Assembly (NCBI RefSeq): GCF_003383095.1 | Contig: NZ_PSYW01000002.1 | Location: 744,001-808,000 of the forward strand | DNA length: 64,000 nt | Source: Haloferax sp. Atlit-12N | GTDB taxonomy: Archaea; Halobacteriota; Halobacteria; Halobacteriales; Haloferacaceae | Reading direction: 5' to 3' | Shown here: positions 23,615 through 45,559 of the stretch, in pieces | How the letters are laid out: the number at the start of each line of letters is the position of its first letter | Position numbering within the stretch: the stretch's first letter is position 1 | The notes under the pieces: generated by a model | The model's database searches: none | Told to the model about the DNA's origin: nothing | What the model saw: the letters and a program-made list of their open reading frames with translations, nothing else | Made by a program: the position numbers and the translations under genes

Positions 23615-24532
23615 ATGGACGGCAAACGAGTCCTCGTTACTGGCGGTGCCGGATTCATCGGTTCGAATCTCGCCAACTCTCTCGCAGAAGACAACGACGT
23701 CATTGCAATCGACGACCTCTATCTCGGGACGCCCGAGAATCTGGATGATGCCGTGGAGTTCCACGACATGACGGTCCTCGACGACGACCTCCCGACCGAG
23801 GGCGTCGATGTGGTGTTCCATCTCGCGGCGCTGTCGTCGTACAAGATGCACGAAGAGAACCCGACGAAGGGTGCTCGTGTGAACATCGAAGGCTTCGTCA
23901 ACACGGTCGAACAGGCCCGGAAAGACGGGTGCGACACCGTCGTGTACGCGACGACCTCTTCGATCTATGGCTCGCGGACGGAACCCTCGCCGGAAGACAT
24001 GCCCGTGGAGTCGCGGACGGGCTACGAAGCGTCGAAGTTAGGCCGTGAGCGCTACGCGGAGTACTTCCACCACCACTACGACATGCAACTGGCTGGCATG
24101 CGTTTCTTCTCTGTGTACCAGGGCTTCGGTGGCGCAGAAGAACACAAAGGCGAGTTCGCGAATACGGTCGCGCAGTTCACCGACAAAATCGCCAATGGTG
24201 AGTCGCCGGAGCTGTTCGGTGATGGGTCACAGACGCGTGACTTCACCCACGTCGATGATATCGTTCGGGGGATCGAACTCGCGGCCGACGAGCGACTCCA
24301 GGGCATCTACAATCTCGGGACTGCCGAGAGCTACTCGTTCAACGAGATGGTCGACATGATCAACGAGGTGCTTGGGACGGATGTGGAGCCTGAGTATGTG
24401 GAAAACCCGTTCGAGGTGTACGTCCACGACACGAAAGCAGACTACTCGAAGATACACGAGGCGACAGGGTGGGAGCCTGAGATTTCGTTCGAGGAGGGAG
24501 TCGAGCGGGTTTGTGAGCCGTATCTCGACTGA
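23615..24532 (+). CDS. NAD-dependent sugar-nucleotide epimerase/dehydratase (extended SDR)
   Basis: 305 residues. The Rossmann motif GGAGFIGSNLA is at 9-19 and the catalytic YEASK (YxxxK) at about 135-139, with TSSIYGS upstream supplying the Ser. RFFSVYQGFGG and TRDFTHVDDIVRG are typical of UDP-glucose/GlcNAc 4-epimerase-like enzymes. It probably makes a sugar nucleotide for surface glycans and marks the left edge of the glycan region. Its 3' end (from 24356) has a diverged duplicate at 28303-28476. Confidence 0.88.
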   Translation: MDGKRVLVTGGAGFIGSNLANSLAEDNDVIAIDDLYLGTPENLDDAVEFHDMTVLDDDLPTEGVDVVFHLAALSSYKMHEENPTKGARVNIEGFVNTVEQARKDGCDTVVYATTSSIYGSRTEPSPEDMPVESRTGYEASKLGRERYAEYFHHHYDMQLAGMRFFSVYQGFGGAEEHKGEFANTVAQFTDKIANGESPELFGDGSQTRDFTHVDDIVRGIELAADERLQGIYNLGTAESYSFNEMVDMINEVLGTDVEPEYVENPFEVYVHDTKADYSKIHEATGWEPEISFEEGVERVCEPYLD

Positions 24533-28526: not shown

Positions 28527-29834
28527 TCACTTCATAGGCTTGTCAGTGGACTCCCCTTCTTCCTCCGAGACGGAGCTGGCGTTGAAATCACCGTTCAGGT
28601 TCAGCGTCCCTGACGCAAGCGCACACTGACTGGGTGCGCCTCCACTCGAAGTCGTTTGCCCCGAGTGGAGTTGTTTCACGAGTTTGCGAGCGATATTCTT
28701 GCTCGCGTTGTAATCCGCATTCAGTTCGTACTCACACTTCTGACACACGAACCGGTGTTTCGATTGCCGATTCGACTTGTGTGTGAATCCACACTTTGAA
28801 CAGCGTTGACTCGTGTATGCTGGGTTGACCTGTCGAATTCCGACATTCAGAACCTCTGTTTTGAACGCAACATACTGGTACAGGCGACGGAACGCCCATG
28901 CATGAAACCGCTTCACGCCGCCCATTCGCGTCCGAATATCTGTTAGATTCTCAAATGCGATGTGCGTGCAGCCGTGAGTGACGGCTTCTTCGAGAATCAG
29001 ATTCGAGGCGCGGTGCAGTTGGTCTTGCATCCAGCGGTGTTCGCGGTTACTTATCGACTGAATCGCCAGATGCGCCGACCGCGTTCCAGACTGCTGCATT
29101 GAGCCACGAGTCTTTTCAAACTCACGACGACGGTGGTTCATCTCATCAGCGTTCCCGATGAACGCACCTGTTGAGGTTACAGCGAGAGAACCGTCTACGT
29201 TCAAATCAACGCCAAGGACTGTTTGGTGCTTGGCATCGGTAGACTGTGGTGTGCTGGAGTCACTTTCATCAATAGCCTGCATCATTCTCGCGTGAAGGTA
29301 GAACGACTCTGTGGACTTGTCGTACTGCAACGTAGCCATGCGAAACTCGAACTCTTTGTTCAAGAGGTAGTTCCCAATCGGTGTGCTATCAGGTTCTCTC
29401 GGAATTACATAGTCACACTCAACCCGGCCGTTAACTGTGGCAAGCGAAACGCGGTCTCGGTGGAACGTCGCAGAACGCTTGTCGTAAAGAATGCTCCACG
29501 CCTTGAAGTGTGGTTGACTCGTCTTGTCGCCATTCTTGAGTCGTTCGACTCCGGCTTTGGTAGCCTCAATACCGCGTCGGATTCCTTTCTGGACGAGGTT
29601 TACGACGAGCTCTGTTTCCTCACGGAGTGGGTGATAGAGCGCATCATGTGCTTCCAGATACGAAGTCACGCAGTAGTCGTGAGGATATCTCCACGCCCAG
29701 TCAGCTGCTCTGTTAGCACAGTGAAGAAATTGGTCTTTGGTTTGATGGAGATCATCGCACCGCTCAGTAGGCACGTCGAGCTTCACTTTCACGGTGCGAA
29801 TTATCCCCGTCACAGGAGGGGTTGGCCCCGTCAT
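28527..29834 (-). CDS. tnpB: IS1341-type TnpB (RNA-guided nuclease), apparently intact
   Basis: 435 residues. The RuvC-like site is complete: Asp210 (GVDLNVDG), Glu295 (IAFENL) and Asp374 (NADYNASKN). The zinc finger uses Cys345, Cys348, Cys364 and Cys367. TnpB proteins cut DNA guided by an RNA transcribed from the element end and so help the element persist. No TnpA gene is adjacent. A short hairpin (AGCCTA...TAGGCT) overlaps the stop codon at the 3' end, where an omega-RNA would be encoded. It inserted among glycosyltransferase and epimerase debris. Confidence 0.9.
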   Translation of the reverse strand: MTGPTPPVTGIIRTVKVKLDVPTERCDDLHQTKDQFLHCANRAADWAWRYPHDYCVTSYLEAHDALYHPLREETELVVNLVQKGIRRGIEATKAGVERLKNGDKTSQPHFKAWSILYDKRSATFHRDRVSLATVNGRVECDYVIPREPDSTPIGNYLLNKEFEFRMATLQYDKSTESFYLHARMMQAIDESDSSTPQSTDAKHQTVLGVDLNVDGSLAVTSTGAFIGNADEMNHRRREFEKTRGSMQQSGTRSAHLAIQSISNREHRWMQDQLHRASNLILEEAVTHGCTHIAFENLTDIRTRMGGVKRFHAWAFRRLYQYVAFKTEVLNVGIRQVNPAYTSQRCSKCGFTHKSNRQSKHRFVCQKCEYELNADYNASKNIARKLVKQLHSGQTTSSGGAPSQCALASGTLNLNGDFNASSVSEEEGESTDKPMK

Positions 29835-30288: not shown

Positions 30289-31254
30289 TCATTCGTCACC
30301 CTTCACAGGAACCGGGAATTTGTAGTCGTACGCCATGAGCGTATTCGAACGCCGCAAGTCGTCGAGGAACGTCCGTGCATCGTAGTCACGAAGCCGAATG
30401 TACAAACCAGACCCGTCCTCGATGCCCTTCTGTCTGACTGCGTAGTTGTCGTACCCCAATCTATCGACCTCTGACTGCAAGTGTTCGACGCACGACTCGG
30501 GAAAGCCGTGGGTCGCAAAGGAAACGCGCGGCGCACCGCTATCTCGGATTGAGCAGTTCCCATCACCCCAGTACCAATGCAGGAGTGCAGTCTTGTCGAG
30601 ATGGTAGTCCTTCGGGACGATTTTGCGGTTGTTCTTCTCGTCCCTGACTTCGTACCACTCCTCGTACATTCGCTGGAGGAGGGGCTGCGGTCGTGACGAG
30701 ACTACCCAGGACGTGTAATCTTCGTCTGTGAACTGGTTCAATCGGGTGATCGAGTTCGGCTGTGACTTCGGGAAGAATCCATCGGGAAGTTTTGTTATCA
30801 GCCGACGTGCGTGTTCTTCCGTCGTCGTCGAGAGTTGGAAGAAACACGACCCATCGTATCGGGAGTGTAAGCACCCATCTCCAAGTAGTTCGCCTTGGAT
30901 TACCGATACCTGAGATGGACTCAGTCCGTGGTCAGTCGTCTTCGGGAGCGAGATGGGGTCGGCACCCGCCTTTTCAAGATGGAACCGAATTGCGACCGGG
31001 GACGTGTCGTACTGGTCCGCAAGCGACTGGAGGGAACTCCGACGTTCGTACGCTTCGACCAGTTCCTCTCTTCGGTTCGCCAACTGCGTGTACGCCGGAC
31101 CACCATTTCGCATTGCGACATCGTGGTCCTGTAGACGGCGGTGAATCGTCGGTGCAGAGACATCGAACACGTCCGCAATCTCACGGAGCGACTGTCCCGC
31201 TTCATAGCGCTCAATGAGTTCGTCAACTCGCTCGTCGAGCCATTCGTACCGCAT
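30289..31254 (-). CDS. Free-standing LAGLIDADG-type homing endonuclease with HTH leader
   Basis: 321 residues. The N-terminal 100 residues hold two HTH-like repeats (ERYEAGQSLREIADVFDVSA and EAYERRSSLQSLADQYDTSP). Two LAGLIDADG-like motifs follow: QGELLGDGC (120-128, Asp126) and HWYWGDGN (226-233, Asp231), the expected pair in a monomeric enzyme. It is not inside an intron or intein that I can see. Homing endonucleases cut a long site and spread their own gene. It sits between a glycosyltransferase stump and the AT-rich cassette. Confidence 0.8.
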   Translation of the reverse strand: MRYEWLDERVDELIERYEAGQSLREIADVFDVSAPTIHRRLQDHDVAMRNGGPAYTQLANRREELVEAYERRSSLQSLADQYDTSPVAIRFHLEKAGADPISLPKTTDHGLSPSQVSVIQGELLGDGCLHSRYDGSCFFQLSTTTEEHARRLITKLPDGFFPKSQPNSITRLNQFTDEDYTSWVVSSRPQPLLQRMYEEWYEVRDEKNNRKIVPKDYHLDKTALLHWYWGDGNCSIRDSGAPRVSFATHGFPESCVEHLQSEVDRLGYDNYAVRQKGIEDGSGLYIRLRDYDARTFLDDLRRSNTLMAYDYKFPVPVKGDE

Positions 31255-31791: not shown

Positions 31792-33246
31792 TTATTGTAG
31801 GTAACCTAGGTCTTCGAGTTTCTGCTTCGTGCTCTGGCTCATCTCAACTGAGTCATTCACAGATGCCTCCTCAAACGAATCTAACCACTTGTCTAGTGCT
31901 TCTTCCAGTTTCTCACTAGTTTCAATATCTGACTGAGAGATGTCCGTCTGTTCCGTGGGGGATTCTTGTAAGTCGAATAGTTGAATGTCTCCGGTTGAGT
32001 CACGAATCAGCTTGTATCGACTCGACTGTATTGACTTCAATTCTTTGTCATAACTCTCCAACTTCTTTTGATCAACACCTGTCTGTTCACTCAACCGCTC
32101 GACTGTCGGTTGCGGTGATAGATACTCTGCGTAGACATACTCTCGTTCTTCATCAGTCCGTTCTGGAGTAATTGCCTCCCCTTGGATGTGTTCCGGTGTA
32201 CTCACTCCTGCAATCTCTAACATCGTCGGGAACAGATCTAATGTCTGAACCAACTGGTCCGTACTATCTGTTCCGTTGAACTCTCCTCCATGGATAATAA
32301 GGGGGACGTGAAGGAGTGTATCGTGGACAGAGTACTGATGATCCATCAGGCCGTGATCTCCTATGTTCTCACCGTGATCCCCTACGACAATGAAAACTGT
32401 ATCTTCCCACTCCCCAGTTGATTTGAGTGTCTGTATCAGTTCACCGATCTGCTCATCTAAATACGCTATTTCTGCACGGTAGAGTGCTTGTAGAAGCTCA
32501 AATTCATCTTCAGAGATGTCGGTTGAGCCCGCCACGAACTCCCACGGCTCTTGTGGGACCTCCATCGCCTCCTCGTACGAAGTGTCAGGAGGCAAGAACT
32601 GCTCTGTGAACTCTTTCGGAGGTTGATAGTCCAGGTGTGGCTCTAAGTAGTTAATAAATAAGAAGAAGGGATTGTCGCTGTGCCTCCCCTCTAGGTGTTT
32701 TTGAACAAGTGCATTCGTTCGCTGTGCACCGTAGTCGTTCCGGCGATAGAAGAACTGTCCGTAGATTCCATTCGCAAGATTAGCAAGTATGTCCTTGCTG
32801 AACAGTTCCGAGAGTCCTTTCTTGATTAGCTCTGTACCATTTGAGGTGAGTTTGATTTCTCCGAAATCAGTATCTGACTGGATGTATTGCCAGACCTTGT
32901 AGAACTCATCAAAGCCGCTTGCTAATCCAAACTCGTCTGTCACCCACGCATTGTTTGTTATTCCAATGGTGTCGTATCCTGACTCAGAGAGGAGTTCTGC
33001 TACAGTTGGAAACTTCCCATCGTATCGTTTGTGACCTGCGTGAGTACCATGCTTTGAGGTATACGTCCCAGTAAACATTGAGGTATGGGACGGTAGCGTC
33101 CAAGGAGCGTTCGCGTATGCGTGTGTGAAATCTGAACCCTCGTTCGCAAGCGTTTCTAACGTTGACCCGGGTGTATTCTTTCGAACGAATCGCGTGTCGG
33201 ATGCACGGGCCGTATCCATTACGACGAGAACAATATTCTCACTCAT
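31792..33246 (-). CDS. Sulfatase-like enzyme A (Thr in place of the formylglycine Cys)
   Basis: 484 residues from ATG 33246. Metal-binding Asp11 in LVVMDTARASD; the nucleophile region APWTLPSHTSMFTG puts Thr50 where sulfatases have Cys/Ser of C/SxPSR; GDHGENIGDHG (Asp290-His291) supplies further ligands. Thr at this place is found in phosphoglycerol and phosphoethanolamine transferases (LtaS, EptA) of the alkaline-phosphatase superfamily. No signal peptide or membrane helix, so cytoplasmic. The C-terminus ends LEDLGYLQ, a tail shared with the three paralogues. It probably acts on a phosphate or sulfate ester of a glycan precursor. Confidence 0.8.
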   Translation of the reverse strand: MSENIVLVVMDTARASDTRFVRKNTPGSTLETLANEGSDFTHAYANAPWTLPSHTSMFTGTYTSKHGTHAGHKRYDGKFPTVAELLSESGYDTIGITNNAWVTDEFGLASGFDEFYKVWQYIQSDTDFGEIKLTSNGTELIKKGLSELFSKDILANLANGIYGQFFYRRNDYGAQRTNALVQKHLEGRHSDNPFFLFINYLEPHLDYQPPKEFTEQFLPPDTSYEEAMEVPQEPWEFVAGSTDISEDEFELLQALYRAEIAYLDEQIGELIQTLKSTGEWEDTVFIVVGDHGENIGDHGLMDHQYSVHDTLLHVPLIIHGGEFNGTDSTDQLVQTLDLFPTMLEIAGVSTPEHIQGEAITPERTDEEREYVYAEYLSPQPTVERLSEQTGVDQKKLESYDKELKSIQSSRYKLIRDSTGDIQLFDLQESPTEQTDISQSDIETSEKLEEALDKWLDSFEEASVNDSVEMSQSTKQKLEDLGYLQ

Positions 33247-33365
33247 GCTGGTCACAGATATCTACTCATCCAGTTGAAGGGATAATAATGTTCTCTATCC
33301 TCAGGAATGTTCTTACTAGACCTTCCAAAAGAATATAACCAACTTGGTTAGATAGTCCTACCATC

Positions 33366-34529
33366 GTGACTACCGAACGAGAGACCACACACGGAGCCTC
33401 AGACTCCGGTGATCTCACAGTCTTAGCACTAAATAAGCGTAGCTGGTGCCATTCTAAGGCAGGTGGTTCTGAACTCAATCTTGAGGAGAGTCTAAAGCGC
33501 CTCGCAGAGAGAGGACATGACGTCCATCTACTAACTGGATCTGACGAGGGACGGAATCCGGTTGAAGAAGACGACTCAGTATCGATTCGTCGAGTAGGTT
33601 TTGACGATCGTCTTCCAGCCCCTTGGGACGTCGTCTTATCCTACCTTACAGTCAGTCTCTACTTCTATGTGTACTCGTTTCGTGTGTCACCAGACATCGT
33701 CTATACCGTGAATACGCCACTACCGTGGCTCATTGTAACCCGACGGCCTCGTGTTGGAATCTTCCATCATATTGCGATTGACTCCTTTTTCGAGACGCAC
33801 CCCTTCCCACAGAACCTACTTGGCTACGTCTCTCAGTGGGTCGGTGTGCTTCGAGAACGAGGTAATCCAACGGTAAGCGTAAGCCCAAGTACAACCCGTG
33901 AATTAGTTTCGAGAGGACATGAGTCCCAGAACGTTCATGAGATCCGAAATGGATTAGACCTCGGGACGTACTCGCCCGGAGAGACATCACCAGTACCTCG
34001 TGTTCTGTATGTTGGTGGCCTCGAGCGCTACAAAGGAGTCGATAGAATCCCTGAGATCCACCAGTCTCTGACTGAGATTTTTGACTCGACTGTTCACATA
34101 GATGTTGCTGGACGTGATGGCCCAGTCAAAGAAGAGATTGAGACATACTGTGCTCAAGTCGAGTTCGCTCACTTCCACGGGTTTGTTTCGATGGAGAAAA
34201 AAATCGATCTCCTCCAGTCCGCATGGGTTTTCATTGCCCCAAGCAGAGTAGAGGGCTGGGGTATCGCGGTACTAGAAGCAAACGCCTGTGGGACCCCTGC
34301 CGTGGGAAGCGATGTTAACGGGCTTCGTGACTCAATTAGAGACGGTGAAACCGGGCTTCTTGCAGACGGAGCGAATTCAACTAAGTTTGCAGAATGCGTC
34401 GACGAGTTACTGTCGAACGAGCAGAAACGGGAGTCTTTCGAGGTAGAAGCCCGATCGTGGGCAGAACAGCACTCTTGGGAACAGACGGTAGACCAACTCG
34501 AAGAGTTGTTTGAGTCAGTCTCATCTTGA
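33366..34529 (+). CDS. GT4-type glycosyltransferase
   Basis: 387 residues from a GTG start. The GT-B fold is shown by the acceptor-side motif KAGGSELNLEESLKRLAERGHDVHLLTG near the N-terminus, the donor-side VLYVGGLERYKGVDRIPEI, and the E-x7-E region PSRVEGWGIAVLEANACGTPAVG. Activity: transfer of an activated sugar to a lipid-linked or soluble acceptor, cytoplasmic face. Its 3' end overlaps the convergent next gene by 9 bases. AT-rich codons. Confidence 0.88.
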   Translation: MTTERETTHGASDSGDLTVLALNKRSWCHSKAGGSELNLEESLKRLAERGHDVHLLTGSDEGRNPVEEDDSVSIRRVGFDDRLPAPWDVVLSYLTVSLYFYVYSFRVSPDIVYTVNTPLPWLIVTRRPRVGIFHHIAIDSFFETHPFPQNLLGYVSQWVGVLRERGNPTVSVSPSTTRELVSRGHESQNVHEIRNGLDLGTYSPGETSPVPRVLYVGGLERYKGVDRIPEIHQSLTEIFDSTVHIDVAGRDGPVKEEIETYCAQVEFAHFHGFVSMEKKIDLLQSAWVFIAPSRVEGWGIAVLEANACGTPAVGSDVNGLRDSIRDGETGLLADGANSTKFAECVDELLSNEQKRESFEVEARSWAEQHSWEQTVDQLEELFESVSS

Positions 34530-35666
34530 GCTGAGTGACCTGTAGCAATCCTCGAGACGGTCTATCCGTGAACGTAAGGAGAAATACTCTTCTGCCGTTT
34601 CTCTTGCACAGTCACCCATCGAAGCGAGACGACTTGGATTGCTCGCCATCTTCTGAATCGATTTCGTAAGCTCCTCTGGATTTCCGGGAGGTATGAATAT
34701 ACTATCTTTCCCATCTTGTATTCCGAGCGGGTTCTCGGACAGCTCTGAGGCAACTACTGGCGTCCCAGATGCGTATGATTCAATCATGGTTAGTGTTGGG
34801 AACGCTTCTCCGCTTTTAGAGGTGAAGAGAAATGCGTCAGCACTTGCGTAGTAGCTGGAAAGAGCATCGTCAGAAACGCGGCCGAGGACTTCCAGATTAT
34901 GTACTTCACTAGCTACTGTCTCAACTTCTTCTCGTAGCGGGCCATCTCCAGCAATTGCAATGTGTGCGTCTGCGTTTTTCGAATCCAACTCTTTGACTGC
35001 TTGCAAGAGTGTGTCTACTCCCTTCTTTTGCGACATTCGAGAAAGTGTGAAGAAGACCGGAGTGTCCTCATTACAGCCAAACTGGTTCGTCTCTGCCTCT
35101 CTGGGGTGGAATCGCTCCGTATCAATTCCATTCACCATAACCTCTGTGTTGGCGCGGGGGTCGATCTGCGTGACGTATCGTTCGATATCTTGACTCACGC
35201 AAAAGACGTGGTCTGCGCGAGACAGATTCCATTTCCCCACGGTTTCGTCATTGATTTTCTCTACCCAGCGAGCAGGAATGGGGTAATCTACGAACGGCGT
35301 ATGTTGATGCAGAACGACCGGAACCTCTGCTGGCGCGGCGTGGAGTACTTTTGTAGTCGTGAGGTAGTTCATTCCATGGACGTGGAGAATATCTGTGTTT
35401 GCGAGAGTACGTTGGATATCTCCAGGGAATTGGAATGGGGTTGGAATTGGATACGGAATTCCTAGGCGCTCTGCTGGATTCCAGGCATTGTACCTCTGGA
35501 TGGTGTATCCATCTCTTCGCTCGGTGCTTGTTCCACCACCAATGTCTGTACTAATGACCGTCACATCGTGTCCACGCTGAGCCAAGCGTTCAGCTTGTGA
35601 TTCAACGACAGATTCGATTCCGCCAATGTGTGGATAGAAGTAATGAGATGCGAGTGCTATTTTCAT
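34521..35666 (-). CDS. GT4-type glycosyltransferase
   Basis: 381 residues. N-terminal MKIALASHYFYPHIGGIESVV with the GG loop, middle MSQKKGVDTLLQAVKEL, and the donor-binding motif TSKSGEAFPTLTMIESYASGTPVVAS. These identify a GT-B glycosyltransferase of family 4, retaining type. It probably adds a sugar during assembly of the surface glycan. Oriented opposite to the neighbouring GT genes on both sides. Confidence 0.9.
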   Translation of the reverse strand: MKIALASHYFYPHIGGIESVVESQAERLAQRGHDVTVISTDIGGGTSTERRDGYTIQRYNAWNPAERLGIPYPIPTPFQFPGDIQRTLANTDILHVHGMNYLTTTKVLHAAPAEVPVVLHQHTPFVDYPIPARWVEKINDETVGKWNLSRADHVFCVSQDIERYVTQIDPRANTEVMVNGIDTERFHPREAETNQFGCNEDTPVFFTLSRMSQKKGVDTLLQAVKELDSKNADAHIAIAGDGPLREEVETVASEVHNLEVLGRVSDDALSSYYASADAFLFTSKSGEAFPTLTMIESYASGTPVVASELSENPLGIQDGKDSIFIPPGNPEELTKSIQKMASNPSRLASMGDCARETAEEYFSLRSRIDRLEDCYRSLSSR

Positions 35667-35775
35667 TGGAGTGGCCGTCTTGCGCTGTATTTAGTGATTT
35701 CACATACACCCTTTGTGAATGTTATAGATTCTCATTTCGGAATGTTTAGGCTCTGTTAGCCACACCAGAGGTGCA

Positions 35776-36975
35776 ATGGCAGATATCTGTCTGGTGAATG
35801 GTGTATTTCCACCAGACGAGTTTGGTGGTGCAGAAAACTACGTACATCGTGTAGCTGTGGCTCTCCAAGAGAGAGGACATGATGTCTTGATTTTAACAAC
35901 GACTAGTGAGCGTAGTCGTGAGTCTCTCACACCAATCAAAGACTCATACAAAGGTGTTCCAGTCTACCGATTTTATCCGCTTAATCATTCCCATCGTAGT
36001 GATAGTACTGGTGAAAATGTCCTTGCTAAAGCACTCTGGCACCAATTAGACACGGTGAACCCACATGCAAAAAGGGTAGTGTCGAAGTTTTTAGAGAAAC
36101 ATCAGCCGGACGTTGTCCACACGAACAACTTCATGGGGATTACTGCATCAGCTGGCAAAGCTATCTCGGAGTCTGACGCTCGATATGTTCACACACTCCA
36201 TGACTACAGCCTCATCTGTCCGAAGAGCAATCTACTGAGAGATCGAACTGCCCCAGAAGGGGAATTGCGAGTTTGTGAAGATCCACCCACTCCATGTCTG
36301 CTATATGCTGGTGTAAAACGGAAGATGATTGGTGAGCCTGACATAGTCATCGGGCCAAGTCAACATGTTGTTGATGTCCATCGTGAACATGGATTCTTTA
36401 CAGGAATTGAGTCCGCTTGTATCCCGCACGGTATTGAAGAAGTTGCAGATGAGCCAGGAGACGAATCATTAGGTCCATCCGTTCTCTATGCAGGGAAGCA
36501 TCTCCGAGCAAAAGGACTTGAAACGTTATTCGACGCCGCTAGGAACCTACCCGAAGTTACCTTCCATCTCTGTGGAACCGGACCATTCGATGACCGGTCT
36601 GAGGAAGTAGCGTCTACCCTTTCAAACGTGGAATACCACGGCTTTGTGTCAGATGAGCGGTTGCGTGAACTACGACGTTCGGTATCGGCTGCTGTCGTCC
36701 CATCGATTTGGATGGAAAATTCCCCATTAGTAATCTATGAGAGCTTTGCAGAGGGACTTCCAGTCATTGGAGCAGATGTTGGTGGAATTCCCGAACTCGT
36801 AGATGAAACTCGTGGCCGACTGTTTTCGTCTGGGGACGCCGATGAATTGGTAAGTCAGATTAGAGAAATAACGGGAGAAGAGACAATTCTACTTCGGCAG
36901 AATACATTATCTTGGGCAGGCAAGCATTCCCTGCAAAAGCATATCAATTCAATTGAAAACCACTACGAAGTCTGA
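35776..36975 (+). CDS. GT4-type glycosyltransferase
   Basis: 399 residues. N-terminal CLVNGVFPPDEFGGAENYVH, HTLHDYSLICPKSNLLRDR in the middle (a motif of GT4 enzymes with an HDY sequence), SVLYAGKHLRAKGLETLF, and the donor site PSIWMENSPLVIYESFAEGL. The protein is complete. It precedes sulfatase-like gene B by 45 bases in the same direction, suggesting an operon with the next two genes. Confidence 0.9.
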   Translation: MADICLVNGVFPPDEFGGAENYVHRVAVALQERGHDVLILTTTSERSRESLTPIKDSYKGVPVYRFYPLNHSHRSDSTGENVLAKALWHQLDTVNPHAKRVVSKFLEKHQPDVVHTNNFMGITASAGKAISESDARYVHTLHDYSLICPKSNLLRDRTAPEGELRVCEDPPTPCLLYAGVKRKMIGEPDIVIGPSQHVVDVHREHGFFTGIESACIPHGIEEVADEPGDESLGPSVLYAGKHLRAKGLETLFDAARNLPEVTFHLCGTGPFDDRSEEVASTLSNVEYHGFVSDERLRELRRSVSAAVVPSIWMENSPLVIYESFAEGLPVIGADVGGIPELVDETRGRLFSSGDADELVSQIREITGEETILLRQNTLSWAGKHSLQKHINSIENHYEV

Positions 36976-37020
36976 CAACAGATGGAAATTATATTACCTG
37001 AGTTCATCCATTAACGACGC

Positions 37021-38370
37021 ATGAGTATGCTGAGGGAGCGACTTGATCCACAATCATTGCTAAATATCATTCCATCACCGATTGAGAAAGCTGCGTTAAA
37101 CGGGTATTATCGATATATTTCATTGAAAGCCGACCAAGAACACACATCTATTGGTGAACGATTTAGCACTCATGAAGGGGCAACAGACCACGTCCTTGTT
37201 ATCGTTCTTGACGCGCTTCGTCCAGATTTCGTACCGGACCTAGATTTTGAGTTTACACGCGCGGTAGCTGCTGGGACTTGGACATTCCCATCTGTCACGA
37301 GCCTACAAACGGGTCTGTATCCTCATGAACATGAATCAGTCGCACATACACATCCAGATGATGACCAGTATGTAATGCCGGAACAAGCAATTCCAGATTA
37401 TACAATCTCATCTGTCTTAGAGTCTGCAGGTTACGAAACATACGGTGGCTTTGCGTTTATGACTCCGTTCTTAGCGTCGCGTGGATGGTATCAAAAACAC
37501 CGTGTATATCAGGACACACGTGCCGAGCAGGTTATTTCTGACTTTCAAGCCTGGAGAAACGGTCGTGATCAGACATTTGGGTATCTTCACTTAGGTGATC
37601 TACATGCGCCAATTGAGCCACCTGCGGAATATGTGGAACGATATAACGTTGACACATCGATAAGAGACTTAGAGCGATTAGTTCGATACACAGATGATTT
37701 TGATGGTTCAGAAGAATGTGAAAAGTTCCGTGAAGAACGACTGAAACTGTATGCCGCTGCACTTGCGTACGTTGAGGACGTGCTTGAGCCGTTTTTAGAA
37801 GAAGTGTCTCAAGATACGACGATTGTGATAACTGGAGACCACGGTGAAGCCCACTGGGAACACTTCGAGGTCGACCAGCAATTTACTGATTCTCGGCCGA
37901 ACTATGGCGTTGGGCATGGTGGAACGCCATTTGATATGACTGCAAGAGTTCCACTTTCCTTCTTCAAGCCAACTGGCTCGCTAACCCCAGAAGGTGGACA
38001 TCCAAGTTTATGTGACGTACCAGCGGCGATTTGCAAGCACGTGCTGAATGAGAGTCCTTTCGGAAAAGAAGACTGGAGCGTTCCAATCCCAGACTCTCGA
38101 ACGGTATTCTGTGAAGCCACTCGGTATGGTGCCGAGCGGAAAGCAGCGTACAGAGGTACTGACAAGGTAATCCATGGTGAGACAGATGAGGTCACATTGG
38201 CGGCCACCGTCAAATCGGAGGGTGGTGAGATCTTTAATCAAATCTCTGTTTCTAGTCAACACACTTCCGAACTAGTTCAGTCACTCCCCGACTACTGGGA
38301 AGATGGGAATATTTCGCATGATACGGACAGAATGGTTGAAGATCAACTCTCTGCGTTGGGATACAAGTAG
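37021..38370 (+). CDS. Sulfatase-like enzyme B (Thr nucleophile)
   Basis: 449 residues. Asp64 in VIVLDALRPD, nucleophile region TWTFPSVTSLQTGLYPHEH with Thr88 at the formylglycine site, TGDHGEAHWEH with Asp273-His274. The C-terminus ends DQLSALGYK. No signal peptide. An N-terminal 50-residue helical leader (IIPSPIEKAALNGYYRYISL) may contact membrane or partners. The same reaction class as enzyme A is expected: phospho- or sulfo-ester hydrolysis or transfer. Confidence 0.78.
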   Translation: MSMLRERLDPQSLLNIIPSPIEKAALNGYYRYISLKADQEHTSIGERFSTHEGATDHVLVIVLDALRPDFVPDLDFEFTRAVAAGTWTFPSVTSLQTGLYPHEHESVAHTHPDDDQYVMPEQAIPDYTISSVLESAGYETYGGFAFMTPFLASRGWYQKHRVYQDTRAEQVISDFQAWRNGRDQTFGYLHLGDLHAPIEPPAEYVERYNVDTSIRDLERLVRYTDDFDGSEECEKFREERLKLYAAALAYVEDVLEPFLEEVSQDTTIVITGDHGEAHWEHFEVDQQFTDSRPNYGVGHGGTPFDMTARVPLSFFKPTGSLTPEGGHPSLCDVPAAICKHVLNESPFGKEDWSVPIPDSRTVFCEATRYGAERKAAYRGTDKVIHGETDEVTLAATVKSEGGEIFNQISVSSQHTSELVQSLPDYWEDGNISHDTDRMVEDQLSALGYK

Positions 38371-38455
38371 GACCTTAATTCGAATTTTCGATTAAGTTTT
38401 GACGGAATAGTATATCACCGGAAATATCAAGAGAATACAATCGTATCATCTGTCT

Positions 38456-39376
38456 ATGGATATCGGACCCTGGATTGATGAATCAATTGAGCAAATTCGT
38501 ACTGACGGTTACGAAGGTTTTAAACAGTCATGCCGTCCAGTCAGGAATAAGTTACTCTCTGGGGGAAATTTGTTCCGATCTTCTGGTCGGTCAATCTATG
38601 AGGATGACTGGGATTTACTTGTTGTGTTGGATGCCTGCCGTTACGATTTATTGACTGAAGTTGAGGCCGAATTTGAGTGGCTTAACTCGATCCAGAATGT
38701 ATGGTCGGTTAATAGTACTACTGCATTTTGGATGCGTCAGACATTTACTGAAAATAGATCCACGGAGATCAAAAATACTGCGTATGTCTGCGGAAATCCA
38801 TTTAGTGAGAGCGAACTTAACCCGAGTGACTTCGCAGAACTAATTGAATTGTGGCGTACGGCATGGACTAATCCAGGTACTGTTCCACCAGAAGCGGTGA
38901 CCGATGAAACGATTAGACTTATGCGAAATGAAGAACACGACCGGGTCATCGCACACTATATGCAACCACATTGTCCATTTATCCCTTCTCCGGAATTGAG
39001 TAAAGGGAAGGATGTTACCAAATTCGGGAATCAAGATTGGCGTGATGTCTGGGAAATGCTACGTGATGGTGATGTTGAGTTAGAGGATGTTTGGAGAGGA
39101 TATCGCGACAATTTACGATTAGGGTTGAATGAAGTGACCGATCTACTACAAAATGTTGATGCGGAGAAAGTCATCGTAACTTCTGATCATGGTAATTCAA
39201 CTGGAGAATGGGGTGTCTACGGCCATCCCCCCAACCTCCCGCTTACAAACTTACGTAAGGTACCATGGATTGAAACCACTGCCCGTGACCTCGGTGAAAG
39301 GTCTCCAGGGAACTGGTTGAAAGCAGATTCTGATCTTGACCGTGATGAACAACTTGCTGCACTTGGATACAAATAA
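38456..39376 (+). CDS. Short sulfatase-like enzyme C (Ser at nucleophile position)
   Basis: 306 residues, much shorter than paralogues A, B and D. Asp59 in LLVVLDACRYD; the nucleophile stretch is VWSVNSTTAFW, where Ser84 aligns with Thr/Cys and the Pro-Ser of CxPSR is missing; TSDHGNSTGEWGVYGHPP supplies metal ligands. It ends DEQLAALGYK, almost the same tail as enzyme B. Likely the same operon as B. Activity could be altered or lost; it may be a specificity partner. Confidence 0.7.
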   Translation: MDIGPWIDESIEQIRTDGYEGFKQSCRPVRNKLLSGGNLFRSSGRSIYEDDWDLLVVLDACRYDLLTEVEAEFEWLNSIQNVWSVNSTTAFWMRQTFTENRSTEIKNTAYVCGNPFSESELNPSDFAELIELWRTAWTNPGTVPPEAVTDETIRLMRNEEHDRVIAHYMQPHCPFIPSPELSKGKDVTKFGNQDWRDVWEMLRDGDVELEDVWRGYRDNLRLGLNEVTDLLQNVDAEKVIVTSDHGNSTGEWGVYGHPPNLPLTNLRKVPWIETTARDLGERSPGNWLKADSDLDRDEQLAALGYK

Positions 39377-39383
39377 GCCGAGC

Positions 39384-40814
39384 TCACCACCAAGCCCAGT
39401 CCAATTTTGAGCATGTTAGGTAGCCATTGTCCCCACTATGATAAATTGTATCGGCAGAAGGGTTGTATTCGATATATCCTTGCTTTTCAAATATCAACTT
39501 TGAAGCAAGCACTTTGTCTACTTTGTTATGTATCTGGATGCAGTCTGTATTGTATTCCCCCATCCATTGGATTTTGTCGACTTGATTTTTTTCTGCATAG
39601 TGATCATAGGGTTGGCCAGTACCATCAAGTACAGTCCTCTTCACAGCGAACCCACTACTAATTACAAGAATTATTAATATACAGACGAGTGTCAGATTTT
39701 TCCATCCAATCGAACTCTGGATTGGTATCTGTTGAAGTAAATTTGGTTGTCGGTAGGCAATATAGAATAATCCAAAAACGCCTGGAATAACAATCAGGCG
39801 TTTGAATGTAGCAAGGTCACCAGCTGCAAGAAGAAGTAAACAGACTAGACTAACGTATCCAAAGATCACGATTGTAAATCGTTCAGTTGGTGAATGGTCG
39901 GTCATATACCACTCTCGAAGTGCAAATAATCCTGCAATTGCGGTTAGTGTCGCTACAAAGAGTGTACCAAAACTATAGATAAACCAGACTGAAAATTCAA
40001 TACCCAGTACGTCAATAGTTGGCCAACCAGAGATTAGTGAGGTAGCTTTTCCAGAAGGTGCCGCTGCCGTTTGCTGCTCGCTGATAAACAATTGTCGGGC
40101 TTTCTGTGTGATATATCGTTCATGGAAGCCAGTCCCTGGGAGGTATGCTGGAGACAAATACGCAGAAATACCGACTGCAATTGATGCAGTAACATCATAC
40201 TGACTAAATTGTCGGATATTTTGATGTGAAAGGAGACTAGTTATAAAGAACCCGGACCATATAGCTCCCCAAACATAGTTGGTGAGTGCAATACCTACGC
40301 ATGCGCAGGCACCTATTATTACAAATCGACGATCATCTGTCTGTAGATATTCGAAGATGGATATAAAGAGTAAGAATATCAAAATATAACTGTGTGCTTT
40401 GTGCGTTGTTTCCATCATTCGTTTTATGAATACTGGGAATACAAAAACGCCAACGCTAGGTAATAAAAACCCCCAGCTTGGCCCATCGGAAGTCCGTCGA
40501 TATATCGATAAAAACGCAATAGCGATGAATGATAATGTAAACACACCATATATTGGTGTCCAGAGTTCCCAAAACCCATAAGATGTCCCTAATATGCGCA
40601 TCGTTATTCCACTCTCCATTTGGAAGGCTAAGCCAGATTGGTAGATCGGGTCAAGAAGGTGAGGATACTGGGAGATATAATATATGTCGTATGCCACAAA
40701 CTGTTCATCAGTAATTGCTCTGAAATAATGGGTGTTCTGAGCCCATAAGAAGTAGGTGATTGAAACTGAAAAGAAGATAAGTACATACTTCACTTGCTTC
40801 CCTAACTGGCCCAT
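39384..40814 (-). CDS. Polytopic membrane protein: candidate GT-C enzyme or glycan polymerase
   Basis: 476 residues with about ten transmembrane helices. After the first helix a loop carries ITDEQFVAYDIYYISQYPHLLDP, where paired acidic residues in the first external loop recall GT-C transferases. A C-terminal soluble segment of about 90 residues follows the last helix. Such proteins in glycan loci are lipid-linked-sugar transferases or Wzy-type polymerases. I cannot decide between these. It converges with enzyme C, 7 bases apart. Confidence 0.55.
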   Translation of the reverse strand: MGQLGKQVKYVLIFFSVSITYFLWAQNTHYFRAITDEQFVAYDIYYISQYPHLLDPIYQSGLAFQMESGITMRILGTSYGFWELWTPIYGVFTLSFIAIAFLSIYRRTSDGPSWGFLLPSVGVFVFPVFIKRMMETTHKAHSYILIFLLFISIFEYLQTDDRRFVIIGACACVGIALTNYVWGAIWSGFFITSLLSHQNIRQFSQYDVTASIAVGISAYLSPAYLPGTGFHERYITQKARQLFISEQQTAAAPSGKATSLISGWPTIDVLGIEFSVWFIYSFGTLFVATLTAIAGLFALREWYMTDHSPTERFTIVIFGYVSLVCLLLLAAGDLATFKRLIVIPGVFGLFYIAYRQPNLLQQIPIQSSIGWKNLTLVCILIILVISSGFAVKRTVLDGTGQPYDHYAEKNQVDKIQWMGEYNTDCIQIHNKVDKVLASKLIFEKQGYIEYNPSADTIYHSGDNGYLTCSKLDWAWW

Positions 40815-40954
40815 GGTATGAGGTATATCTCATACGAGGTAAATCATACTGTTCTCAAGAGTAGGTGATCAGGAGTAATGCTCTCAACCACAGATAGTCA
40901 GTTAGATAATTATCAGGGGAAGAACTAATACATTGAAGTCAGATTGGAAGAACA

Positions 40955-42433
40955 ATGGGTTCACCACATGTCTTTTTACTGACCGTCGACTGTCTTCGTG
41001 CCGATCGTGTAGGTTGTTATGGATATGAAAAAGACACCACACCAAACATTGACAAATTGGCTAGTGATGGTGTTACGTATACTCGTTGTTACTCAACTGG
41101 TCCTCGAACAAACGAAAGTTTCCCTGGAATCGTTTCAAGTGGACTCTCTACAGACTGTGCATTTGCTGGAGATCGGTGGCACAGAGTCCCCCCAAAGCCT
41201 ACAATTGCTTCTTGGTTATCTGAAAATGGATACGATACGGGTGCTAGGCTCTCGAACCCGCAATTGGCAGCTAATAAACAATATGATCATGGTTTTGATT
41301 CGTTTGAAAACTTGGCTGTTGGGACTGTTGGTTGGGGTGTTTCAGAATCTGAAGAGAACGAAGAACAAGACGGAAATGGGAACATAAATACATTTTTCAA
41401 AAATATTGGCTCAAAAATCCACGATATTAGATCAAACCTTCGAGAATCATCTGCGTTCTCTAGATGGGGATTCTATATTCCATTATTCTGTTCGTACCGA
41501 GAATACCAAAGACGAACTGGGTGGCCGATCGTTGATGGTGCAACGATTCGGCGTGAGATAATCAACATTACACCAGACTCGACAACAGGCTTAAATCCAA
41601 TATTCCGGTGGGCTCATTTTAATGACATTCATGCACCAATTCACCCAGATAGAGTGAATCAATCTAAACTAGATTCAATTCCAGTCTATAGACAATACCT
41701 TTCAGACATTGAACGTATTCGGCAAGTTGAGTCAAAGGGATATGAACGAATGTATGACTCAATGGTTCGATATGTTGACCAGCAAATCGGACATGTTATG
41801 TCTGAAATTAAGAATAGTGGACTTTGGGAAGATTCAATCATCATTGTCACTTCTGACCATGGTGAAGCACTATTTGACCGGGGAGTACATGGTCATGCAT
41901 CTGGTCAAGACCGGTATCTACATGATAAATCTCGAGACTATATGTATGATGAGTTACTGAATGTACCGCTTATTGTTGGTGGGGGTGCTACAGAGCATAA
42001 TGCTACAATCACGGCCCCAGTCTCTACTGCATGGATTAATGAGATTATTGCACAATTAGCTGACCTTCCCAAGGGAGAGTTCGTTAGGAGCTCAGGAGAT
42101 TCAGACTTATTATCAGGACAAATTGAAGAGGTAGTACTGTCAGATGCGTTGACTGAAAACGGGCATACTTTTTCTGGTATTTTTGGAGATTTTAAGTTGG
42201 TGACAAAATCTCTCTCCCCGGAAGATGATATTCTAGAAAACTCATACCTATTTAAATTAGCTGACGATCCGAATGAGTTACGCCCGCTAGATCATGACTC
42301 AGTACCACCTCAAATTGAAAAAGCAATTAGAGGCAACATTCGAGACATCTCTGATCTATCTGAAATCGACCACGCCGAGCAGGTGAGTGACCAAGCAAAA
42401 GAGTTGTTGTCTCAATTGGGATATACCGAGTGA
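40955..42433 (+). CDS. Sulfatase-like enzyme D (Thr nucleophile, degenerate motif)
   Basis: 492 residues. TVDCLRADRVGCYGYEKDTTPNIDKLA is the classic sulfatase N-terminus with Asp12. The nucleophile region reads GPRTNESFPGIVSSG: Thr52 aligns with the catalytic position but the Pro of CxPS is absent. TSDHGEALFDRGVHGH supplies metal ligands. It ends LLSQLGYTE. No signal peptide. It was probably acquired with the cassette; strong AT codon bias. Confidence 0.75.
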   Translation: MGSPHVFLLTVDCLRADRVGCYGYEKDTTPNIDKLASDGVTYTRCYSTGPRTNESFPGIVSSGLSTDCAFAGDRWHRVPPKPTIASWLSENGYDTGARLSNPQLAANKQYDHGFDSFENLAVGTVGWGVSESEENEEQDGNGNINTFFKNIGSKIHDIRSNLRESSAFSRWGFYIPLFCSYREYQRRTGWPIVDGATIRREIINITPDSTTGLNPIFRWAHFNDIHAPIHPDRVNQSKLDSIPVYRQYLSDIERIRQVESKGYERMYDSMVRYVDQQIGHVMSEIKNSGLWEDSIIIVTSDHGEALFDRGVHGHASGQDRYLHDKSRDYMYDELLNVPLIVGGGATEHNATITAPVSTAWINEIIAQLADLPKGEFVRSSGDSDLLSGQIEEVVLSDALTENGHTFSGIFGDFKLVTKSLSPEDDILENSYLFKLADDPNELRPLDHDSVPPQIEKAIRGNIRDISDLSEIDHAEQVSDQAKELLSQLGYTE

Positions 42434-42461
42434 TGGCTAGCGGAAGTCTCTAATTTCAGTC

Positions 42462-43991
42462 TTAGCGACCATATTCTAAAACTTTCCGTGTGAATCGGAG
42501 GTCTCTTCCAACCTTTTTCTCAAATTTGTCCAAGAGAACCATATCCGTATCTTCAATACTATTTGTAAGAATCACCGAAGAAAGGACCAATAATGTCGTC
42601 ATAGCTGCCATAGTAATTATAGATATAATTGGCTTTGATAAATTAATTTGATTATGAATAAAATACGTTAACACGGTGCTCAATAATATTGGTTTAACAA
42701 TATTAGAGGAAAACGGAGTCACACCAACTCTCTCGTATATTAAATACAGCTCAATGACATTATATACAGTATATCCTGCCACAGTTGCGAGTGCTGCACC
42801 AGCAATTCCATAGGCTGGGATGAATATTAAGTTGAGAGTGAAATTTGCAACCACACCACCAATTCCAGAAACGAATTCAATTCGGGTATTTTTTATTGCT
42901 TGTACCATATCGCCATTAGGACCCGTAAGTGATCGGACAAACAAACCTCCACAGAGAATAGCAAGTGGGAGTGCTGCACTTTCATAAGCTGGACCGAAGA
43001 GGAAATTCACAATTCTATCTGATTCGAAAACAAAAACTAACACAACTGGTAGTGTGAGTATAACCGACCACTTTGTAATTGTTGTGAATAATTGGTCTAA
43101 CTCAGTCTGGTTACCCTGCTCGAATGCTCTCGTTGCTAGTGGCAAGAACAAGAAGCCAAAAGATGAAAGAACAACAGTCGTTGCTTGTCTTAATGGTTGG
43201 ATTGCTCTATAATTCCCAACATTCCCTGCGTCTAAAAAGTAACCAATCATTAGAACATCTAATTGGGATAGAAACAAAAAGATAATCGAACTAAGGGCAA
43301 GAGGCCAAGAAAAACCCAATAGACGGATAAATTCGGATTTGGAAGGGACAGAAAACGAATCCTTGCTGAGAAAACCAGATCTGTGAATAAAGAACCAACC
43401 AAACGCCACAATTATTGATGGAATTGAAATCCAGTACACTATCGCAGTCTTTTCAGATACACCAAGGTGAACAAAACCACCTAAGATTGCTAACCCACCC
43501 ACTCGGGCGGCGATGGACCGAGACAAGACTGTTGCTAAACTCTGTTCTCCGGCACGAAGGATTCCAATTGTAACTTTAGACAGGGGAAACACCACTAAAT
43601 ATGGTGAAATGAGTATTAGACTTCTATTTAAATCAGGGAGGGACATAATCTGAGTGAGGGATCCCGAGAAAAACCAAATCAACAGCATCCCTATCGATCC
43701 GGCTGTAGCGGCGGTTATACTACCTGCTAAAACCATTTCCCAACGTGAAGATTTTCTACTAGCTGTCGAAGAGAACCTCGTAACTCCATCATGAACCCCT
43801 AAAAGTAATATGTTCCCAGAGGTTGACACAATTGTGTAAGCAAGCGCCACACTACCGTAGACTTCTGGTCCTAACTCTCTGGCCAATAGAGTCTCAGCAA
43901 CCAACCCTAATGACCTGCCAATTAGCGAACCAACCATCATCAGCGCAGCACTTCCAGCGATTGAGCTTAGTGAATCAGAAATGTCAGTCAC
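42462..43991 (-). CDS. Wzx-like polysaccharide flippase (MOP superfamily)
   Basis: 509 residues from GTG, with 12-14 membrane segments. SLGLVAETLLARELGPEVYGSVALAYTI near the N-terminus is the conserved start of PST/MATE-type oligosaccharide flippases. It would move the lipid-linked glycan built by the neighbouring transferases to the outer face. The C-terminal 30 residues are soluble and charged (LLDKFEKKVGRDLRFTRKVL). Last gene of the AT-rich block. Confidence 0.85.
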   Translation of the reverse strand: MTDISDSLSSIAGSAALMMVGSLIGRSLGLVAETLLARELGPEVYGSVALAYTIVSTSGNILLLGVHDGVTRFSSTASRKSSRWEMVLAGSITAATAGSIGMLLIWFFSGSLTQIMSLPDLNRSLILISPYLVVFPLSKVTIGILRAGEQSLATVLSRSIAARVGGLAILGGFVHLGVSEKTAIVYWISIPSIIVAFGWFFIHRSGFLSKDSFSVPSKSEFIRLLGFSWPLALSSIIFLFLSQLDVLMIGYFLDAGNVGNYRAIQPLRQATTVVLSSFGFLFLPLATRAFEQGNQTELDQLFTTITKWSVILTLPVVLVFVFESDRIVNFLFGPAYESAALPLAILCGGLFVRSLTGPNGDMVQAIKNTRIEFVSGIGGVVANFTLNLIFIPAYGIAGAALATVAGYTVYNVIELYLIYERVGVTPFSSNIVKPILLSTVLTYFIHNQINLSKPIISIITMAAMTTLLVLSSVILTNSIEDTDMVLLDKFEKKVGRDLRFTRKVLEYGR

Positions 43992-44143: not shown

Positions 44144-45388
44144 CTACTCGTCGAGCGAACCCAACAGGAACGACCCGAACACCATCTGCAACCCGACCAC
44201 CACGGCCACGGTCGCAACCACGTCGGCAACCGCGATAGGCAGCGCACTGAACCCGCTCGTCACCCACGTAAAGGCCAGGTAGCCACCGTAGGCGAGCCCA
44301 GCAAGGAACACGAGCGAGCCGATCGTCGCCCCTCTCTCAAGCGAAATCCGCTTCGTGAACCACGTCGTAAACGGATCCGACGCACCACGAACCGGATCCG
44401 AAGACACCGTCGAGAACGCCCCGAACAGCATCAACTGGAAGCCAGCGAGCGTCAACAACCCACCACCAATCCCGGTGTGAATGCCGAACTGCGCGCCGCC
44501 AAGCTCCACACCACTCCACGCCATCACCAGCGCCAGCACACCAACCACAGACAACCCGAACCCAGGTGCAGAGAACAGGTAGCCGGGCGCATTCACGAGC
44601 ATAAACCGAACGTGTCGCCAGCCATCGGGGAAGCTCTCGAGGTTGGCCTCACCCTCACGGGGATGGTAGGTAATCGGCTTCTCTTCGATCTCGAGGTCCT
44701 TCGCCCCGGCCTCCATAATCATTTCGCTGGCGAACTCCATGCCCGTCGACGAACACTCCATGGTCTCCCAGGCATCACGCGTGAACACGCGCATCCCACT
44801 GTGCGCGTCACTCACGCCAGCGCCGTAGAACACGTTCAAGAACTTCGTCAACAGCGGGTTGCCGACGTGTTCGTGCAGCGGTGGCATCGACCCGGGCAAG
44901 ATCTCACCTTCAAGCCGCGAGCCCATGGCCATATCCGCATCACCGGAGCGAACCATGTTCAGGAGCTTCGGCAGCTCCTTGAAGTCGTAGGTACAGTCAG
45001 CGTCGCCCATGGCGATGTACTGGCCGCGGACGCGCTCGAAGGCGTACAGGTAGGCGTACCCGTAGCCCTTGCCGTCGGGTTCGATGACGACCGCACCATT
45101 CTCTGCCGCAATCTCGGGCGTGCGGTCGTCCGAACTGTCGGCGACGACGACCTCGCCGTAGATCTGCATGTCCTCGAGGGCGGCTTTGACCCACTCGATA
45201 CACTGGGCGATGCCACCTTCTTCGTTGAGGGTGGGCATCACGACCGAGAGCGTCGGCGTGATGTCGCTGTCTGCGGACAACAGCAACTCATCACCACTGA
45301 GTTGGATATCCGATGCTGACGTTTCGCTCGTTCCATTACCCAGCTGTTTTGCACGCTGGGGTTCGTTGTGTGCGCTTGACGTTCCCAT
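44144..45388 (-). CDS. AglJ/AglD-type dolichyl-phosphate glycosyltransferase (GT2)
   Basis: 414 residues from ATG 45388; the extension to 45445 is not favoured. GT2 domain at about 50-280: VVMPTLNEEGGIAQCIEWV, VVADSSDDRTPEIA, and the DxD-like GDADCTYDF. HSGMRVFTRDAWETM is typical of dolichol-phosphate mannose/glucose synthases. Four C-terminal membrane helices follow. Such enzymes charge dolichol phosphate with the first or a late sugar of archaeal N-glycans. The gene is GC-rich, so it belongs to the older core of the glycosylation locus. Confidence 0.85.
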   Translation of the reverse strand: MGTSSAHNEPQRAKQLGNGTSETSASDIQLSGDELLLSADSDITPTLSVVMPTLNEEGGIAQCIEWVKAALEDMQIYGEVVVADSSDDRTPEIAAENGAVVIEPDGKGYGYAYLYAFERVRGQYIAMGDADCTYDFKELPKLLNMVRSGDADMAMGSRLEGEILPGSMPPLHEHVGNPLLTKFLNVFYGAGVSDAHSGMRVFTRDAWETMECSSTGMEFASEMIMEAGAKDLEIEEKPITYHPREGEANLESFPDGWRHVRFMLVNAPGYLFSAPGFGLSVVGVLALVMAWSGVELGGAQFGIHTGIGGGLLTLAGFQLMLFGAFSTVSSDPVRGASDPFTTWFTKRISLERGATIGSLVFLAGLAYGGYLAFTWVTSGFSALPIAVADVVATVAVVVGLQMVFGSFLLGSLDE

Positions 45389-45559
45389 AGAGGTTGACCA
45401 CCTGTTGTGAGGCACCGCCGAATCACTGTGCAGTGTTCGGTGCACTCGACGAACGGTTTCTATTGTGTTGACTCGGAGAGCCTCGTAAAGAGTTTATCGT
45501 CTGAGCACTCTGTGTAGACAGAATATAATATTGATAATATATATGCGAAAACAATTTCG

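Follow-up and report, generated by a model that had tools for sequence, protein, structure and literature searches.

A haloarchaeal glycan cassette whose four sulfatase-like enzymes may add sulfate rather than remove it

The window studied here, a 64,000-nucleotide stretch of the Haloferax sp. Atlit-12N genome, contains at positions 31,792-43,991 a glycan cassette with four enzymes of the alkaline phosphatase (AP) superfamily, called A to D, three GT4 glycosyltransferases, an orphan membrane protein, and a flippase. The system is of the kind described in 2025 for Agl30 and Agl31 of Halobacterium salinarum. On balance we favor the view that the cassette makes a sulfated lipid-linked glycan through AP-superfamily sulfotransferases, probably for N-glycosylation of the S-layer. 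The database label of such proteins is sulfatase, an enzyme of sulfate removal, while the evidence points to the reverse reaction. The first-pass annotation had proposed, from the Thr residues at the presumed active sites, a phosphate- or phosphodiester-decorated glycan. This proposal is not supported, as the nearest characterized homologues, Agl30 and Agl31, are N-glycan sulfotransferases, and we lean toward sulfate in its place as the first hypothesis.

The description of the region as an AT-rich glycan cassette stands. All genes lie where they had been placed (Table 1), and the GC content is 0.451 inside the cassette versus 0.603 in the remainder of the window. An AglJ-like transferase, just beyond the range first described, adjoins the cassette; it scores 162 bits with the AglJ model, under the model cut-off of 325. 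The orphan membrane protein gave no Pfam or NCBIfam match, and no relatives of it were seen in the compared neighborhoods. No aglB gene was recognized within the stretch studied. The left flank carries a TnpB/IS605-like transposase gene (28527-29834) and a LAGLIDADG homing-endonuclease gene (30289-31254), and a pilin gene lies on the right flank of the island. A gene for an NAD-dependent sugar epimerase/dehydratase is located ~7 kb to the left of the cassette (23615-24532). The host assembly comprises 4.0 Mb in 104 contigs and contains a second cluster (contig C5, ~210,600-220,000) with at least five AP-superfamily genes, one of them Agl30-like, and glycosyltransferases nearby.

Table 1. Genes of the cassette and the adjoining transferase, with positions in the window
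Feature	Position	Strand	Properties
AP enzyme A	31792..33255	-	487 aa (484 from ATG); Thr nucleophile in W-T-L-P-S-H; PF00884 134 bits
GT4 glycosyltransferase 1	33366..34529	+	PF00534 116 bits
GT4 glycosyltransferase 2	34521..35666	-	PF00534/PF13439
GT4 glycosyltransferase 3	35776..36975	+	PF13692/PF13439
AP enzyme B	37021..38370	+	449 aa; Thr88 in W-T-F-P-S-V; PF00884 63.5 bits
AP enzyme C	38456..39376	+	306 aa; taken as Agl30 family; Ser84 in W-S-V-N-S
Orphan polytopic membrane protein	39384..40814	-	476 aa; ~7 predicted helices (hydropathy)
AP enzyme D	40955..42433	+	492 aa; Thr52 in P-R-T-N-E-S-F-P; PF00884 116 bits
Wzx/MOP-type flippase	42462..43991	-	PF01943 88 bits
AglJ-like GT2, dolichol-phosphate sugar transferase type	44144..45445	-	best NCBIfam model TIGR04182 AglJ

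The Pfam Sulfatase model (PF00884) scores C at only 17 bits, under its 25-bit cut-off. We nonetheless assign C to the AP superfamily because iterated profiles arrive at a single set of 252-268 proteins whichever of the four enzymes is used as the seed. The residues first quoted for the nucleophile position are right for all four enzymes, with Thr50 of A counted from the ATG start (Thr53 from GTG). In a profile alignment with Cys-type haloarchaeal sulfatases as the positive control, which aligned as expected, the Thr residues of A, B, and D occupy the Cys/formylglycine column. Ser84 of C is unchanged across 91 relatives, and this family-wide conservation rules out chance; for A and B chance is ruled out by the occurrence of orthologues in other species. 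All four enzymes also retain the metal-ligand motifs noted earlier, an Asp in D-x-x-R followed by D-H-G, in an Asp-Ser/Thr-Asp-His pattern. Classical sulfatases have a DN metal motif where A-D have DH.

The first-pass reading of the four enzymes as something other than formylglycine sulfatases is supported. The motif Cys/Ser-x-Pro/Ala-x-Arg is missing from each of them, the corresponding residues being T-L-P-S-H in A, T-F-P-S-V in B, S-V-N-S-T in C, and T-N-E-S-F in D. The host genome gave no match to the formylglycine-generating enzyme (FGE, PF03781), and its best match to the anaerobic maturase model (TIGR03942), at 39.7 bits, fell far below the cut-off of 349. FGE was found in 26 of 243 Halobacteriales genomes. 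Two FGE loci, L167 and L168, were examined, and both have a Cys-type sulfatase; this observation and the lack of an FGE match in the host form part of the evidence for sulfate transfer. Among A-type proteins with the column aligned, 101 have Thr, 19 have Ser, and 13 have Cys, although this is no unbiased census as the loci were fetched mostly around cassette-type genes. The Cys group carries the sulfatase-motif Arg and includes the sulfatases of both FGE loci. In a tree built with FastTree, proteins with Thr and with Ser are mixed inside one large group and 11 of the 12 Cys proteins cluster together. D, for which no close orthologue was seen among the fetched proteins, sits in a well-supported all-Thr clade, and B is on a long branch of unsure position.

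To be true sulfatases, A-D would need an unusual nucleophile or an unrecognized maturation route. Their fold and Pfam family would suit such a role, and another sulfatase of the host does have a Cys motif, CIPAR. We know of no case in which Thr yields formylglycine. The negative searches for maturation enzymes and the site column, which on the tree parts the Thr/Ser proteins from the majority of the Cys proteins, make this explanation highly improbable. Half of the Pfam seed carries Thr at the formylglycine position, and these Thr-type members are not proven or accepted as sulfatases (PMC5066984). PF00884 has ten matches in the host genome, one of them Cys-type. The host sulfatase L002 (contig C3:181676-182665) contains the canonical C-I-P-A-R motif, although the assembly gave no FGE match.

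The comparison with Agl30 and Agl31 speaks for sulfate. In H. salinarum, the aglB cluster encodes the AP-superfamily proteins VNG1056C, which is the membrane-bound Agl30, and VNG1057C, which is the soluble Agl31, and gene deletion together with heterologous expression in Haloferax volcanii identified them as N-glycan sulfotransferases (PMC11980604). Deletion of VNG1056C lowered the di-sulfated N-linked tetrasaccharide peptide ~250-fold and deletion of VNG1057C more than 50-fold, while expression of either gene in Hfx. volcanii gave a glycan with an added group of the mass of sulfate (PMC11980604). Taken alone, this +80 shift does not tell sulfate from phosphate. The third AP member of the H. 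salinarum cluster, VNG1063H, had no effect on sulfation (PMC11980604).

The published primers provided a route from these genes to the cassette. Those for VNG1056C (PMC11980604) translate to DFGHLDM, RAITDRTV, and HLEDLGYL, and a protein of Halobellus rufus (L067, 9983-10963) contains the counterparts DFGQLDM, RAITDRTV, and HLEDLGYL, ordered alike, and has a hydrophobic segment at its N-terminus close to where the Agl30 helix was reported. C is 37% identical to this protein over 323 columns (E 8e-64). We therefore place C in the Agl30 family, a link that runs through short primer-derived peptides, although C lacks the N-terminal membrane helix of Agl30. Homology to VNG1056C was found for C only, while A, B, and D show homology at the level of the superfamily. 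The primer-derived terminus of VNG1057C is LEELGYT, and A-D all finish in LxxLGY plus one or two residues. A, B, and D are tied to Agl31 less firmly, through the common superfamily and this C-terminus, and are only distantly related to the proven sulfotransferases. A search for Agl31 itself with the peptides NGAEIK, NYIQAA, and LEELGYT turned up nothing convincing in the set of fetched proteins. The cassette shares with the H. salinarum cluster its location among glycan-assembly genes, here the three GT4 enzymes, the flippase, and the AglJ-like transferase; it differs in having four AP genes instead of three and in its set of glycosyltransferases. H. salinarum was absent from the results of the genome-contig scan. 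The nearest Halobacterium genome (G064) shares 83% identity with it in an S-layer peptide. A locus of that genome, L046, was considered as the exact Agl30/Agl31 pair and was kept as a family member only, its N-terminus being unlike the published one.

The main competing explanation is that some or all of the four enzymes are phosphotransferases of the EptA or LtaS kind, placing a phosphodiester such as glycerol-phosphate onto a glycan or lipid carrier. EptA and LtaS use a Thr nucleophile, and A-D share with them an unmodified Thr or Ser and an Asp-Asp-His metal site, features that are non-specific in being common to Agl30-like proteins as well. Both EptA and LtaS have a membrane anchor and work outside the cell. 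A simple hydropathy scan of A-D agreed with the earlier annotation in finding no signal peptide or transmembrane helix, so that these enzymes show neither a membrane domain nor signs of export, unlike EptA and LtaS. The best sequence match of C in the PDB was EptA, at a marginal E of 1e-4. The only characterized haloarchaeal homologues work in glycan sulfation, which argues against phosphotransfer, while VNG1063H, which its primer-derived sequence (VHYFQPH) places in the same family, leaves, together with the fold of C, more room for it in individual enzymes. We regard phosphotransfer as unlikely.

Predicted structures were compared with EptA, phosphonate monoester hydrolases, and sulfatases, as the first-pass annotation had suggested, and the outcome was divided. 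The AlphaFold model of A (pLDDT 86) consistently matched sulfatases and phosphonate monoester hydrolases (Foldseek E ~1e-25; VIA Z up to 41), resembling them in fold and domain order, a point against the EptA kind. The model of C (pLDDT 91.6) had MCR/EptA proteins as its best Foldseek matches (E 2e-8), and its fold is shared with them. In VIA, EptA (Z 15.7, rmsd 3.0, 206 aligned residues) tied with a sulfatase (Z 15.3, rmsd 3.8, 206 aligned), and the fold was dropped as an arbiter between phosphate and sulfate. The models show that either transfer chemistry could be accommodated, the fold alone being unable to separate sulfotransfer from phosphotransfer. The top Foldseek match of A was a phosphonate monoester hydrolase, and the AP superfamily is catalytically promiscuous. 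These points would also fit hydrolases, either phosphodiesterases or phosphatases of the PMH/NPP type, acting on glycan or nucleotide-sugar intermediates to trim or recycle them. Deletion of Agl30 or Agl31, however, brings a loss and not a gain of sulfate, and addition fits this better than removal does, as it does the presence of four paralogues in a single assembly cassette. A hydrolytic role for A-D is therefore quite improbable.

Under the sulfotransferase model, a lipid-linked oligosaccharide would be assembled in the cytoplasm by the AglJ-like first transferase and the three GT4 enzymes. Several AP-superfamily sulfotransferases of the Agl30/Agl31 kind would then add sulfate to this lipid-linked glycan. 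The flippase would turn the decorated glycan outward, and the product would probably serve N-glycosylation of S-layer proteins. Cytoplasmic action on a precursor, also proposed in the first-pass annotation, is supported, as A-D look soluble and biosynthetic and are so placed. With one metal ion and an unmodified Ser or Thr as the nucleophile, each AP enzyme would receive a sulfuryl group from a donor and hand it to a sugar hydroxyl. We infer that sulfate is the group moved by A-D, that a covalent sulfo-enzyme intermediate is formed, and that the product is an N-glycan. C probably transfers sulfate. For A and for D the chances are about even, and for B they fall slightly short of that. Several points weigh against sulfate: the link to Agl30 is made through short primer-derived peptides with Agl31 not placed, the kinship of A, B, and D with proven sulfotransferases is distant, VNG1063H belongs to the family and is without effect on sulfation, and the mass shift in Hfx. 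volcanii is ambiguous as described above.

Relatives of the cassette genes occur in other haloarchaea. Orthologues of A in genomes of the same family are 39-63% identical, and relatives of B in other genera of the family are 34-52% identical; a protein of Halocatena marina 47% identical to B lies close to an Agl30-like gene. GT4 1 has relatives of 59-65% identity next to B or A orthologues at two loci (L206 and L207), and GT4 3 has relatives of 53-56% identity in the L206 and Halegenticoccus clusters. The nearest syntenic clusters are those of Halegenticoccus tardaugens and H. soli (A 38-40%, GT4 3 53-56%, C 48-49%, flippase 38-40%, AglJ 61-62% identity), with C 49% identical to the H. tardaugens protein and the position of the AglJ-like transferase conserved. 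The GC content of these islands is 43-47%, compared with ~56-67% outside. A profile scan of genome contigs with an Agl30-like alignment returned 78 loci, nearly all carrying haloarchaeal names. At least one glycosyltransferase related to the queries was present at 52 of these, a related flippase at 24, and AglB (TIGR04154) or a clear homologue at 19, with two or more AP genes at 39. As the Agl30-like family is present in 209 of the 243 Halobacteriales genomes sampled, the correction from sulfate removal to sulfate addition would apply broadly.

The source of sulfate is a gap in this account. Sat-type ATP sulfurylase (PF01747) was not found in the host genome and is present in 7 of the 243 genomes. 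Full-length APS kinase (PF01583 at ~147 bits or more) occurs in ~17 of the 243, and the host gave a weak match only (E 6.5e-5). Among the 209 genomes with an Agl30-like protein, 205 are without Sat and ~193 without full-length APS kinase, counts that cover the Sat and APS kinase route, CysD/CysN-type ATP sulfurylase being outside the search. A literature search on sulfate activation in haloarchaea yielded nothing useful. That neither Sat nor full-length APS kinase was found in the host genome counts against sulfate transfer and in favor of phosphotransfer. We raise as a tentative suggestion, on the doubtful side, a haloarchaeal class of AP-fold sulfotransferases that act through a sulfo-enzyme on an unmodified Ser or Thr and whose donor is not the PAPS that Sat and APS kinase produce. 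The scarcity of these two enzymes turns the origin of the sulfate on archaeal glycans into a specific problem and, together with the width of the family, makes the result more than a relabeling.

PAPS-dependent sulfotransferases (PF00685/PF13469) would share with A-D the presumed outcome of a sulfated glycan. They belong to a different Pfam family and, in the haloarchaeal loci opened, adjoin Sat and/or APS kinase. The one Sat locus opened (L218, genome G196, same genus as the host) has Sat beside a PF00685 sulfotransferase in a compact module that also includes APS kinase and a PHP-domain protein. At another locus (L215, 6143-7003), an APS kinase carries a fused cytidylyltransferase-like domain and lies next to a weak sulfotransferase match; in a second genome (L216, 6568-7428) the arrangement is the same as judged from the start and length of the sequence.
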